Shown: positions 4,698 through 10,839 of the stretch, one piece after another
How the letters are laid out: every line of letters starts with the position of its first letter
Position numbering within the stretch: the first letter of the stretch is position 1
Source of the DNA: a virus
Direction: 5' to 3' (one strand)
Length of the DNA: 25,286 nucleotides
Virus record (IMG/VR): IMGVR_UViG_3300045970_000191
Coordinates: 1-25,286 of that record
Translations under genes and position numbers: made by a program
The notes under the pieces: generated by a model
The model's database searches: none
What the model was told of the DNA's origin: nothing
What the model saw: only the letters and a program-made list of their open reading frames with translations

Positions 4698-6281
4698 TCA
4701 CACCTGGGCGAGTTCAGCCATCGTTGACGCCAGTAGCACCGAGGTTACTTCATAATTACCTTCGACCTGCACCTCCCAATTTATTGCCAGAAAACCAGAG
4801 GGGAGGCGGAAAGGTGTTGAGCTTGTAGCATACTGCGAATGTTTTAATACGCCGTCAGCGTAGATCTTCACCATAACCGGACCCGATGCAAATATTTGTG
4901 CAACTCCAAGATTAGCTGGAGAAAGCGCCTGAAACTTCTTCGACTTCCACATCAGCATTTTATCCGGACCGGCCGCCCATTCCATTATCTGACCATAGAC
5001 AACCAGAAACAATTTGCCGTTTTCCCGGTCGTACCAGCCACCTGTGGCCGTAATATCATGTGTTGAGAAAGTCCCGGTTGCCACGTCGAAGATAAAGCCA
5101 CCGGATGTCATAAAGCCGATATAAAGAGATTCATACTGGAGGGCGAAAACAAGAGAAGCAGAGTAGGCCGCCCATTCTTTTTTTGTCATAAGAGCTGCCG
5201 TAGCCAGTTCAACCGTACCCGTGCCGGCCAACCACAATCCGGAGGGACCGGGATACATGCAGGCCCATCCCATATCAACAAACCCACGCTTCAGGATGCA
5301 CGCCTCGCCCTTCTCCAGTTTATCGATACTTAGCTGTCCGGGCGTCGAACCGGTCACCACATACGGCATCCCCTTGGTTGTAACCAGTATACTGTTGCCA
5401 TAAACACCAATAGCTATAATCTCGACATCAACAGTGATCTGATATCCAGCAGGATAGGCATGGGGTAGGTACGGAACCGAGGGGCAGAGCACATTCTTAT
5501 AAAACCCAACCAGAAACCCGCCAGGGTGAGCAACAATTCCGGTCATTGCCGCGTTTGGCGCAATCCATGTTGCAGATGGCAATACTTCGCCCAGAGCAGA
5601 ACTCGCAATGGTATCGCTGTATGCGGGTGTAGCCACAGCAACGGACGCAACAAACTGATATTCGGAAGCTGTTGACCCGGTGTTGACGCGGTAGATGTTC
5701 TTGGAGATGATATTATGCGACCCACCCGGGGCGGCGCTCATGTTCGAAATGGTTACCGTCGTACCTGGCTCCACACTGATTAATGCCGAGGGGCTTGATG
5801 GCGGACCTTCCTCGCCGTAAGCTGAGACATAGGTATAAACATAGGCCCGGCTTTCCGCCGTAACAGAGGTACTGACTGCGATAGTTCCGGATGCAGTGGG
5901 TATAGCTGCGGGTTTAGGTATCCCCAGATCATACGAACTGCCCGGTTTGGATGAACCACTTAAAATAATGTTCCTGTCACCCATCTTCGGTACACCATCT
6001 CCGGTCCAGTAGAGTCGATCATATACGTCCATGGCCACGGCGCTGCGACAGACGCTGATATCATTCAGCCAGGCCAGCCATTTATCGCCATAGCGGAAAA
6101 TGGTTTTTTTGTTTCCAGGGACGAGCGGTTCGCTGACAGCTACCGGGCCTACACCGGACAACGGACGCAGCGAGCCTGACCCAAACAGGCAGTTTGATGC
6201 AATCTGCGCGGCCTGTTGTGGTAGATCTACCGGAGCGATTCGCGGGGCCAGCCCGGAGAAGGTATCGAGTTTGATTAACAC
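4698..6281 (-). CDS. Tail nozzle / stabilisation-like protein
   Basis: This 527-residue protein begins LIKLDTFSGLAPRIAP, then describes repeated beta blades (YGDKWLAWL, YDRLYWTGDGVPKMG, YVYTYVSAYGEEGPPS). These are characteristic of the large beta-propeller tail proteins of short-tailed phages such as T7 gp12 and P22 gp10-type stabilisation proteins. The YxYTYVxxxGEEGPPS element is widespread in these proteins. It likely forms the distal tail tube that closes the portal-adaptor channel. It starts with GTG sharing one base with the upstream stop. Assignment rests on blade pattern and context. Confidence 0.65.
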   Translation of the reverse strand: MLIKLDTFSGLAPRIAPVDLPQQAAQIASNCLFGSGSLRPLSGVGPVAVSEPLVPGNKKTIFRYGDKWLAWLNDISVCRSAVAMDVYDRLYWTGDGVPKMGDRNIILSGSSKPGSSYDLGIPKPAAIPTASGTIAVSTSVTAESRAYVYTYVSAYGEEGPPSSPSALISVEPGTTVTISNMSAAPGGSHNIISKNIYRVNTGSTASEYQFVASVAVATPAYSDTIASSALGEVLPSATWIAPNAAMTGIVAHPGGFLVGFYKNVLCPSVPYLPHAYPAGYQITVDVEIIAIGVYGNSILVTTKGMPYVVTGSTPGQLSIDKLEKGEACILKRGFVDMGWACMYPGPSGLWLAGTGTVELATAALMTKKEWAAYSASLVFALQYESLYIGFMTSGGFIFDVATGTFSTHDITATGGWYDRENGKLFLVVYGQIMEWAAGPDKMLMWKSKKFQALSPANLGVAQIFASGPVMVKIYADGVLKHSQYATSSTPFRLPSGFLAINWEVQVEGNYEVTSVLLASTMAELAQV

Positions 6282-7709: not shown

Positions 7710-8195
7710 TCACAGCTTCGCAGCCTCACTAAAATATGTGTCCATCTCCGTATCACTCCAGCCAAGCAGTTGCTGCATCTGGGCAACTAAAGGAAATGTT
7801 CTATCAACGGATGTCCGGTATTCCCAATCCACCTGAGCTGATTCAGACATGGAACCAATAGCGGCATTTACCGCAGAGTACAGTCCGAGTGCGATTAACT
7901 GCTGTCTGGCTTGTGCCATTGAGACGGTTTTCACCTTCCGTGCGCTCATTTCATCTGCTCTCATCTGCTCGTAATCACCAAGGCTCAACTCACCGATCAC
8001 CCCATCAATAAAATGATCGCTCCCGTCCGGGCATGTGCCGAACAGATCAGGTACCGCCGTTGGATAGCGGGACTCCCTCGCCCACTCGAACTGCAAACCT
8101 GCTACAGCCGGGAAGATTGCGCCGTTTAATGCCGGTTCAGACGCCACCGATATACCGGTCTCAGCGTCAACGTGTGTAAAATGGATATACTTCAT
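7710..8195 (-). CDS. Conserved phage tail-associated protein
   Basis: This 161-residue protein has an N-terminal beta segment (YIHFTHVDAETGISV) and a C-terminal helical domain of the pattern ARQQLIALGLYSAVNAAI followed by VDWEYRTSVDRTFPLV. The same helical pattern (LxxxGLxxxVxxAI ... WEY ... FxRxxPLV) is found in many small proteins encoded beside phage fibres. No specific function is established to my knowledge. Its ATG overlaps the stop of the RT-tail ORF as ATGA, so its translation probably depends on that short ORF. A GGAG site also lies upstream. Confidence 0.55.
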   Translation of the reverse strand: MKYIHFTHVDAETGISVASEPALNGAIFPAVAGLQFEWARESRYPTAVPDLFGTCPDGSDHFIDGVIGELSLGDYEQMRADEMSARKVKTVSMAQARQQLIALGLYSAVNAAIGSMSESAQVDWEYRTSVDRTFPLVAQMQQLLGWSDTEMDTYFSEAAKL

Positions 8196-8344
8196 GGCCT
8201 TACTCCTTTGATTGAAATAACTTTGGTTAGACCTGTATCAACCCGGCAACCCATTGCCCGCAACCTCCCGGCAAAACGCTTTCGTTCGCACCAGGCGTTA
8301 GCATGACGCATCAAACCGAAATAACTGTTTGCGGTGGCTCGCAT
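8192..8344 (-). pseudogene. C-terminal stub of a DGR reverse transcriptase
   Basis: This 50-codon ORF starts with ATG overlapping the avd stop (TGATG) and ends in TGA overlapping the next gene (ATGA). Near its start it reads ANSYFGLMRHANAWCERKRF. That matches the conserved extreme C-terminal motif of DGR reverse transcriptases (NSY-G---H---- then an Arg/Lys-rich helix), and the position just after avd is where the RT gene sits in such cassettes. Family RTs are roughly 300-400 residues; all palm, finger and catalytic motifs are missing here. The simplest reading is a deletion that joined the 3' end of avd to the RT tail and removed the template repeat. The ORF may persist because it couples translation to the downstream gene. 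Confidence 0.75.
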
Positions 8345-8703
8345 CACTCTGCCGACAATGGTATTACAGTTTTCAGCCAGCCTTGGGCCTGACGAACCAC
8401 GCTGTCTGTTAATGCGACTGTTTCGGAGAACTGTTTGATGCTCATGAGGCGCATATCCTTACTTAACCTCACCAGCAACTCTACAACCTGCATGCGCTCT
8501 ACAATCAGCGCCACGTACTTTGCCCTTTCACCAATAAAAGTATTTGCCTTGTAGATGAACAACACCAGATCAACTACCTCTTCGCGCAACTTTGCACCCA
8601 GAGTATGCTTGAAATCACGGGGATAGCTTTTTACAACCTTCGTGACCTGCTGCAAAAGCTCGTATGTTGTCTTGTAAATCGGTAGATGCTGATATTGCGC
8701 CAC
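8344..8703 (-). CDS. avd: Avd, DGR accessory variability determinant
   Basis: This 119-residue all-helical protein matches the four-helix-bundle Avd family. Its N-terminus is YQHLPIYKTTYELLQQVTKV, followed by YPRDFKHTLGAKLREEVVDL. Further on come IYKANTF, then ERMQVVELLVRLSKDMRLMS and a C-terminal QAQGWLK. The segments LPIYK-YELL, PR-FK-TLG-KL-EE and LLVRL-KD-R-MS are the family's recognisable core. In Bordetella phage BPP-1, Avd forms a pentamer that binds RT and the template RNA and is needed for mutagenic homing. GTG at 8703 is chosen because a GGAGG site lies seven bases upstream. It follows the variable fibre gene, the canonical position. With the RT missing, Avd has no visible partner here. 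Confidence 0.88.
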   Translation of the reverse strand: MAQYQHLPIYKTTYELLQQVTKVVKSYPRDFKHTLGAKLREEVVDLVLFIYKANTFIGERAKYVALIVERMQVVELLVRLSKDMRLMSIKQFSETVALTDSVVRQAQGWLKTVIPLSAE

Positions 8704-8743: not shown

Positions 8744-10795
8744 TTAAATAATTGATCGCCTGACCGCTCGCACATAAAAAGCAGCGTACTTATTGCCGAG
8801 GTACTGGTAGCCGGGGACCCCTGAGTTCCAGCTCTGCCTCCACGCGTACGTCGCTGAGACCTCTGAGGACGACCAGTAGTAGTACGACGCGTAAGCAAAG
8901 GCTTCCGACTCCCCGGTTCGGAAGTTCTTGCCACTTGCCACTTGTCCCGGAACAGTCAGCATATAGGCATCGCCGTGAGGACTGCTGTTTTGGTTGTGGC
9001 CGTGAGCGACATCAACATCGTCGATTGATCCAAGCAGGGTGTAGTTGATTGCACTGTCCGACCTGTCCGCCGTCACATAGTTATTATCCGCTGTGGGTTT
9101 CAAGTTCCGCCAGCAAAGTTCCAGCTCGTCTCGAGCAGGCAGATACCAGTCTGTTTTACTGCCGATATTGAGATTGTTGCAGAAATGCGCTGCGGGGTAT
9201 GTGGTGGCATCACCAGCCGCAACCATCGCAAGAGTAGCCTTGCGTCCCTCGGTAAGCGTCTGGCACGCTGCCGGAGCCGCCGTGTTGTCAACTTTGTACG
9301 TCTTACTACTGCTCTCTCCGGTGGATTTAGGCGCAACGATAATCCGGTATTGGGCCATGATTGACCAATCCGTAAGTGTACCGCTGCCGCTAACACTTGA
9401 TACGTTGATTGTAAGAGTAGTACCGGAAGCGCCGGTGACAGTCCCGATCATCTTGTTGGCAGGATTTGCGCGACTGCGAACTTCCAGTGCTTGCCCAGAA
9501 TAGACAATAGGTGAAGAGGTCATATCCGTAACAGTGAAGGCTTTGCTTCCTGTGCCGATGGCAACAGATGAAGACGACTGGACAAGCTCGTTCCAGATCA
9601 TCCCGGTGTAAAATCCGCCTTCAAACGAATCACCCATAGCAGCAGGGGTTGACGTAGGGGTAGAGATGTAGCTATTGAAGGACGAGGCTGTGGCAAAAGA
9701 TATCCCTGTACTCCAGGATGACCAGCCGTTGCCCACGCCCTTATGCCGACAGCGCACATAATATGTTGTAGAGACGGAAAGCCCGGTAGCAGACCATGAT
9801 GTTTTGTTGGAGGTATCGTTGTAACTGGATTTCACAACAGTCGTGAAACCGGAATCGGTTGCCACTTCCCAATCGGTTTTTTCGTGGGTATCCGAAACAC
9901 CTGTCCACGAGAACGCGCTGGATGTAACGGCCACGGTATCCATCTGGTTTGTAGCGCCGCTTGAAGGGGCGGTGATTGTAGGAGTAGCAACACTGGCCGC
10001 AAGGATCGTCATGCTGATCGTCCGCGCAGTGCCGTTTGTGGTTAAGGTCATAGTGACGGTCTGAGCCGACGAAGGGGCGGTGAATGAGATTGAATCGCCA
10101 GTGATTGAGGCTGATCCGGCATTAACCGAAACGGAATAGGTACTAAACGCATCAAAATTGCTGACCGTGTAGGTCTTGGATTGCGATACGTAGATTGTGG
10201 TTTCGCCGGTTATGGTGGAGCCGGTACCTACATTCTGATCGCCGGTGTTAGAGCCGGAGAGTGTAGTAATGCCGAGTGTAGTTTTAATTGTTGAAACAGT
10301 CTCAGCCGGAGCTGCCGCAAGCGCTGCTACCGCAAAACCTGTTATGTCGGATACTACATGAGTGTGAGAGGTTGGTGTGCGGGCGTTAGTTAGCCTGGTG
10401 TCGTTGCCGGCAACCGCTTCAGAGCCGCTTGAGCCGATTCGTAGCAGACCTCCATGGGCTGTTACTGTTAATGCTCCATGGTCGCTGATATCCTGAATTG
10501 ATGCCCCCGTCAATGTCAGCATCACATCTTTTGATCCGGTGGCAAACGCTATCTTACTGGCGCTGTTGGATGCCTCCAGGGTTGTACGCTCTAGCGTGGA
10601 AGGGGCAGAAAACGTGCCGGTACCGGTTTCCCACTCCCCTGTGTTTGGATCGACAATACAATACCCACACGTATCACCACTCGTCAGCGCGGAATTAAAA
10701 GTCCGGTAGCCACTCTGAGCGCCACCCAGCGCTATATTTCCCGTGCCGGTTGTAGTGGTGAATTCCTTCACTCGGTCAACATATTTATAAGCCAT
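8744..10795 (-). CDS. Fibre with C-type-lectin-type DGR target domain
   Basis: This 683-residue protein begins MAYKYVDRVKEF, a virion-anchoring start common among phage fibres. It continues with a HGGLLRIG / LTNARTPTSHTHVVSDITGF linker, an Ig-like stretch, a fibronectin-III-like domain (about 270-375) and a C-terminal domain from about residue 388 (FEGGFYTGMIW). That domain carries the DUF1566/lectin-fold signature DWYLPARDELELCW near 547 and ends YYYWSSSE ... FYVRAVRR. In this family the final ~45 residues form the ligand-binding surface diversified by DGRs. The ATG at 10795 has a GGAG eight bases upstream. It is the likely receptor-binding protein and is followed directly by avd. Confidence 0.85.
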   Translation of the reverse strand: MAYKYVDRVKEFTTTTGTGNIALGGAQSGYRTFNSALTSGDTCGYCIVDPNTGEWETGTGTFSAPSTLERTTLEASNSASKIAFATGSKDVMLTLTGASIQDISDHGALTVTAHGGLLRIGSSGSEAVAGNDTRLTNARTPTSHTHVVSDITGFAVAALAAAPAETVSTIKTTLGITTLSGSNTGDQNVGTGSTITGETTIYVSQSKTYTVSNFDAFSTYSVSVNAGSASITGDSISFTAPSSAQTVTMTLTTNGTARTISMTILAASVATPTITAPSSGATNQMDTVAVTSSAFSWTGVSDTHEKTDWEVATDSGFTTVVKSSYNDTSNKTSWSATGLSVSTTYYVRCRHKGVGNGWSSWSTGISFATASSFNSYISTPTSTPAAMGDSFEGGFYTGMIWNELVQSSSSVAIGTGSKAFTVTDMTSSPIVYSGQALEVRSRANPANKMIGTVTGASGTTLTINVSSVSGSGTLTDWSIMAQYRIIVAPKSTGESSSKTYKVDNTAAPAACQTLTEGRKATLAMVAAGDATTYPAAHFCNNLNIGSKTDWYLPARDELELCWRNLKPTADNNYVTADRSDSAINYTLLGSIDDVDVAHGHNQNSSPHGDAYMLTVPGQVASGKNFRTGESEAFAYASYYYWSSSEVSATYAWRQSWNSGVPGYQYLGNKYAAFYVRAVRRSII
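8755..8890 (-). other. Probable DGR variable region (VR) in fibre 3' end
   Basis: The last ~45 codons of the fibre show the codon habit left by adenine-directed mutagenesis of AAC-rich templates. Of 40 codons ending at the CGA of YVRAV, 16 end in C with mixed first two bases (TAC, GTC, AGC, CCC, GGC, CTC, AAC). The flanking framework YYWSSSE and FYVRAVRR is as expected for lectin-type VRs. Boundaries are approximate because no template repeat is visible to align with it. Confidence 0.65.
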
Positions 10796-10839
10796 GGGTG
10801 ACACTCCTTGTGAATAAGATTAAAAGTAAAAAGACAAGA

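Follow-up and report, generated by a model that had tools for sequence, protein, structure and literature searches.

A probable deletion relic of a DGR reverse transcriptase beside an intact avd gene in a phage tail cassette

We find that a 50-codon open reading frame in a phage tail cassette, referred to here as the stub, is very probably a deletion relic of a DGR reverse transcriptase (RT). The DNA analyzed (the window) is a 25,286-bp IMG/VR contig, a fragment of a phage genome, and comparison with syntenic loci identifies the stub as the RT C-terminus, which a deletion has left adjoining an avd gene that is still whole. Taken alone, the stub is an ordinary relic, and the surrounding series of scars in related phages is the more useful observation.

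Identity of the stub and extent of the deletion

The minus strand of the window carries, in order, the gene of the variable protein (VP), avd, the stub, and a downstream gene (Table 1). The Avd accessory protein is recognized by both PF22296 and phrog_3206 and is 78-84% identical to the Avd of three relatives, L001-L003, in which avd is followed by the template repeat (TR) and a full RT at the same place and then by a gene beginning like the downstream gene of the window. The 50 stub residues are 61, 63, and 71% identical to the syntenic RT C-termini of L001, L002, and L003, respectively, bearing out the first-pass annotation, which had read the ORF as derived from an RT tail; its description of the ends also agrees with the coordinates, TGATG holding both the stop of avd and the ATG of the stub, and ATGA both the end of the stub and the start codon of the downstream gene. 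The kinship with RT C-termini appears in these pairwise identities and not in profile searches, where the 50 residues, too short a query, match nothing in Pfam or PHROGs. The stub aligns just past the RT palm, at residues ~292-328 of the BPP-1 bRT (8UB7), which the RT of the relatives matches as far as bRT residue ~308.

Table 1. Positions of the DGR-related features in the window
Feature	Position	Strand	Remarks
Downstream gene, same cassette, MKYIxFTxVD family	7710-8195 (ATG 8195-8193)	minus	phrog_6034
RT tail remnant ORF (stub)	8192-8344 (ATG 8344-8342; TGA 8194-8192)	minus	50 codons; 51 codons from GTG 8347
Deletion junction	8335-8343	minus	post-avd sequence (gtgatgcgagcc) fused to RT tail (accgcaaacag)
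avd, full length	8344-8703 (GTG 8703, or start 8721; stop TGA 8346-8344)	minus	PF22296, 47.2 bits; phrog_3206, E 1.7e-25
Variable (target) protein, tail-fiber-like	8744-10804	minus	Lcl_C-type C-terminal domain; PF07603 (below its cut-off), phrog_4245
Variable repeat (VR), 138 nt	8756-8893	minus	inside variable protein gene; TR partner absent from window

A search of a phage collection with the stub returned weak matches only (E 0.009 to 0.2), those in annotated phage records falling under RT genes. No DNA similarity was found among GenBank phages, an Avd and RT-tail fusion-protein query retrieved no phage or plasmid record joining both halves, and the downstream gene gave no matches as a single-sequence scan query. 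A match to the RT core (RVT_1) is absent throughout the 25,286-bp contig, and of the RT with SQ and YxDD motifs that marks a functional DGR this genome fragment holds only the C-terminal tail. The contig can be described, on the sequence comparison, as holding a degenerate DGR cassette, with a recognizable DGR part syntenic with intact homologs and the catalytic part gone.

Compared with L001-L003, ~1.25 kb is missing, from just past the avd stop to the codons preceding ANSYFG, and comprises the TR and ~320 RT codons including SQ and YxDD; all avd codons are kept, together with 46 RT codons in their original frame. The possible shared stretch at the window junction, gcgag.ca, is not resolvable at ~75% identity, and no contig carrying this junction came up in an IMG/VR search. 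Scar joints compared with the nearest intact relative show little sequence common to both sides, which argues for illegitimate rather than homologous recombination.

We propose that the ancestor carried an operon VP-avd-TR-RT-downstream gene, as seen in relatives, in which the RT frame ran from an ATG at the avd stop, open through the TR, to the ATGA end. Illegitimate recombination would then have joined the first bases after avd to the RT codons just before ANSYFG. Comparison with the intact loci shows what was taken out, namely the TR, the SQ and YxDD motifs, and the fingers and palm of the RT, with avd left whole. Mutagenized cDNA would no longer be made, so that the VR would stay fixed in the absence of an RT acting from elsewhere in trans. 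No step needs the stub peptide, which would be without a required function. Judging from the scars, the cis requirement would be the start of the downstream gene and a Shine-Dalgarno-like region in the last RT codons, limiting how far a deletion can extend.

Inherited overlaps and a series of scars in relatives

The precise overlaps at the two ends of the stub had been taken as a sign of selective retention, a view that finds no support in the intact relatives, which show the same TGATG and ATGA overlaps. In a survey of 69 non-redundant intact loci, the first start available to the RT frame is an ATG that overlaps the stop of avd, and the TR is read through, in 6 of the 7 closest open-frame relatives (L001, L002, L003, L027, L076, and L116; the exception, L009, starts further upstream), and the RT ends in the ATGA overlap in 10 of 11 relatives with a same-family (MKY...FTYVD) downstream gene (L001, L002, L009, L022, L027, L031, L056, L057, L076, and L116; not L003). 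Since the relatives share the same overlaps, the deletion preserved both ends of an existing frame, and we take the overlaps to be the inherited ends of the RT reading frame rather than stub-specific features. That the frame was kept across the deletion is a one-in-three event and no evidence of design.

Scans for scars used a broad Avd alignment and the downstream gene as queries and, because they look for the avd start, the sample is biased to forms retaining it. Counting distinct breakpoints as distinct events, with nested secondary deletions possible, we identified 12 different avd-to-RT deletion scars including that of the window (Table 2), two of which are identical across 2-3 separate contigs. 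Their right ends are spread over the last ~60 RT codons; several retain only ~10 RT codons, and one retains most of the RT. In this last case (L161, 4001-4913) the deletion starts at codon 21 of avd and reaches codon ~76 of the RT; the TR is gone, and the RT core and tail are open in a frame that differs from that of avd.

Table 2. Extent of avd and RT kept at the deletion scars
Scar	avd codons kept	RT codons kept	Frame
Window	all	46	
L069	~60	~55	in frame
L035	~66	~60	in frame
L072	97	~46	in frame
L152-154	~57	~50	out of frame
L156/157	23	~30	in frame (L156)
L158	~20	~30	out of frame
L160	19 + internal avd piece	~25	in frame
L141	~47	~11	in frame
L155/L159	26 or 23	~12	out of frame
L036	18	~9	out of frame
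L161	21	~290	out of frame

Seven contigs have no DGR cassette at all, the VP gene being followed directly by the downstream gene (L004/L078, L008, L075, L080, L081, L083, and L086), with a gap of 0-23 nt. In deletion forms other than that of the window the RT remnant ranges from ~9 to ~290 codons, and some contigs have lost it completely, which gives no support to the idea that the tail was selectively retained; special retention of the RT tail was rejected in view of scars with ~10 codons or none. Outside the window, 6 of 11 fusion junctions are in frame and 5 of 11 are out, against 3.7 in-frame junctions expected (exact binomial P about 0.12). Selection for in-frame joints was considered on the strength of the three earliest fusions, each of them in frame, and was rejected when more cases brought the count to 6/11.

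We see, in one phage tail cassette, mutagenic machinery that appears to have been excised repeatedly and at differing points while the diversified tail fiber stays; what is left behind is either a scar of avd and the RT tail or no trace. A series of this kind allows the cost of programmed hypermutation, and its turnover, to be measured, and it calls for caution in annotation, in that small "Avd-like" or fused ORFs beside fiber genes can be scars. Three separate deletions have produced in-frame Avd::RT-tail fusion ORFs (L069, 5730-6071, 113 codons; L035, 5001-5372, 123 codons; L072, 6001-6432, 143 codons). At L061 (243-3528), one RT has two avd copies upstream, and the related L072 carries the fused avd-RT tail instead.

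Other readings of the stub

The SD-like AAAGGAG before the downstream gene sits within the last codons of the stub, and the start codon of this gene and the preceding ~20 nt survive at 9 of 9 other scar loci lying upstream of it, several of these remnants holding little RT beyond that point. On a rival reading, the stub is kept in cis for translation, with ribosomes from avd reinitiating at TGATG and reaching the ATGA start of the downstream gene. In the window, each frame overlaps the next without a break; at the nine other same-gene scar loci, a mini-ORF that opens at the avd start has its end between -16 and +19 nt of the downstream start, and in L083, which lacks the cassette, the stop of the VP gene overlaps the downstream gene start. 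However, the downstream gene in the window has its own SD-like AAAGGAG, and L036, L155, and L159 cope without RT-frame translation, their stop lying 19 nt upstream. Furthermore, a right end so close to the gene makes the spacing largely automatic, and ~10 codons would be enough, leaving 50 unneeded. We consider such coupling possible but unlikely to be the reason for the stub, and prefer its reading as a relic.

The VR matches itself alone across the 25,286-bp contig, with no TR to pair with it. Relative to the L001-L003 TR consensus, and limited to TR positions conserved in these three, the window VR differs at 16 of 34 A sites and 9 of 78 non-A sites; the corresponding non-A differences are 0/78 in the VRs of the intact L001-L003 and 1/78 in that of L069. 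Measured against a consensus built without it, L002 has 11/89 non-A differences, and TR divergence alone could therefore explain the excess in the window. Read in this way, the VR appears to record past DGR activity while giving no date for its end, and the window presumably cannot mutagenize its own tail fiber unless helped in trans. Help of this kind would come from a split DGR with a complete RT and TR elsewhere in the phage, acting on the VR in trans, an arrangement compatible with the contig being a fragment, with an intact and constrained Avd, and with the adenine-site pattern that the VR retains. We regard it as improbable: RT and TR are both absent from 25 kb, the RT adjoins avd in all full-length relatives, and the scars and cassette-free forms among relatives point to plain loss.

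A codon model of the tail only was powerless, its synonymous sites being saturated, and we therefore shared neutral branch lengths between avd and the tail. In this joint model, omega for the tail on the window branch is 0.066 (0.117 for the background), an average across a long branch that perhaps mostly predates the deletion; fixing omega at 1 on this branch is rejected, being 7.0 lnL units worse. For Avd, omega is 0.135 on the window branch and 0.056 in the background, a difference that is not significant. Constraint on the tail fits a recent deletion, but would also fit a stub still in use. At the scar shared by L155 and L159, the remnant shows 3 nonsynonymous and 0 synonymous codon differences, and its avd part has in addition lost 9 nt, against 8-14 synonymous and 1-4 nonsynonymous differences over these codons among intact relatives; small as these numbers are, they point to decay.

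Use of the peptide itself, as a basic thumb-derived helix still binding Avd or RNA, would be in keeping with this constraint on the window branch, with the basic composition of the stub (12 K/R in 51 residues), with the nucleic acid binding proposed for the DGR RT C-terminus (PMC3521204), and with the in-frame fusions in L069, L035, and L072. Yet L141, L155/L159, and L036 are without essentially the whole tail and keep the neighboring genes, Avd is cut about halfway along in L069 and L035, so that an Avd-peptide complex cannot explain those, and the IMG/VR search gave no same-junction relative showing maintenance; we give this reading a very small chance. A more specific version, in which the complete Avd and the thumb-derived peptide of 50 residues would persist as functional partners once the RT body was gone (e.g., as an RNA-binding or dominant-negative module) and the Avd::RT-tail fusions of relatives would be convergent versions of this pair, is speculative and less probable again. 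Least probable of all is an assembly artifact in which a single metagenomic contig skips the TR and RT, given that the junction lies away from the 138-nt VR/TR repeat, where collapse would delete avd, has just a few bases of possible homology, and has analogous scars on independent contigs, some of them replicated.

Relation to known DGRs

The window resembles a BPP-1 type DGR (VP-avd-TR-RT) in gene order, Avd family, and the position of the VR in a tail-fiber gene, and differs from it in having neither TR nor catalytic RT and in that, among its relatives, the TR sits within the open RT frame. The DiGReF survey (PMC3521204, Fig. 4) described inactivated DGRs with a truncated RT and remaining target and accessory parts, read as recent inactivation, in which the RT is inactivated by nonsense, frameshift, or insertion and the TR is kept. 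Here, likewise, the RT is dead while target and accessory persist, but the deletion removed the TR and all of the RT but its tail. The window is also like the remnant DGR cassettes of cyanobacteria (PMC7517822) and the fragments in crAss-like phages (PMC12386605) in that DGR pieces outlast the loss of others, and removal of the diversification parts after a good variant arises has been suggested for such remnant or fragmentary cassettes (PMC7517822; PMC12386605). In a partial literature search, we found no published description of graded junctions that leave stubs of avd or of the RT tail within a single phage tail cassette.

Other arrangements are found in further loci. In L088 and L089, the interval 5172-6001 holds an avd that has decayed and, after it, an HNH-type ORF at the TR/RT place. 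In L050 and L051, near 4989-5126, an HNH-type ORF precedes the RT tail, and the 5 kb upstream contain neither a full RT core nor an avd. As in the DiGReF "group 3," where the TR overlaps the RT ORF (PMC3521204), the TR lies within one open frame from the avd stop into the RT in L001 (6357-7757), L002 (2954-4357), and L003 (1905-3284); the frame of the TR in these loci is the same as that of the VP through the VR, and it may provide an N-terminal extension of the RT if translated.
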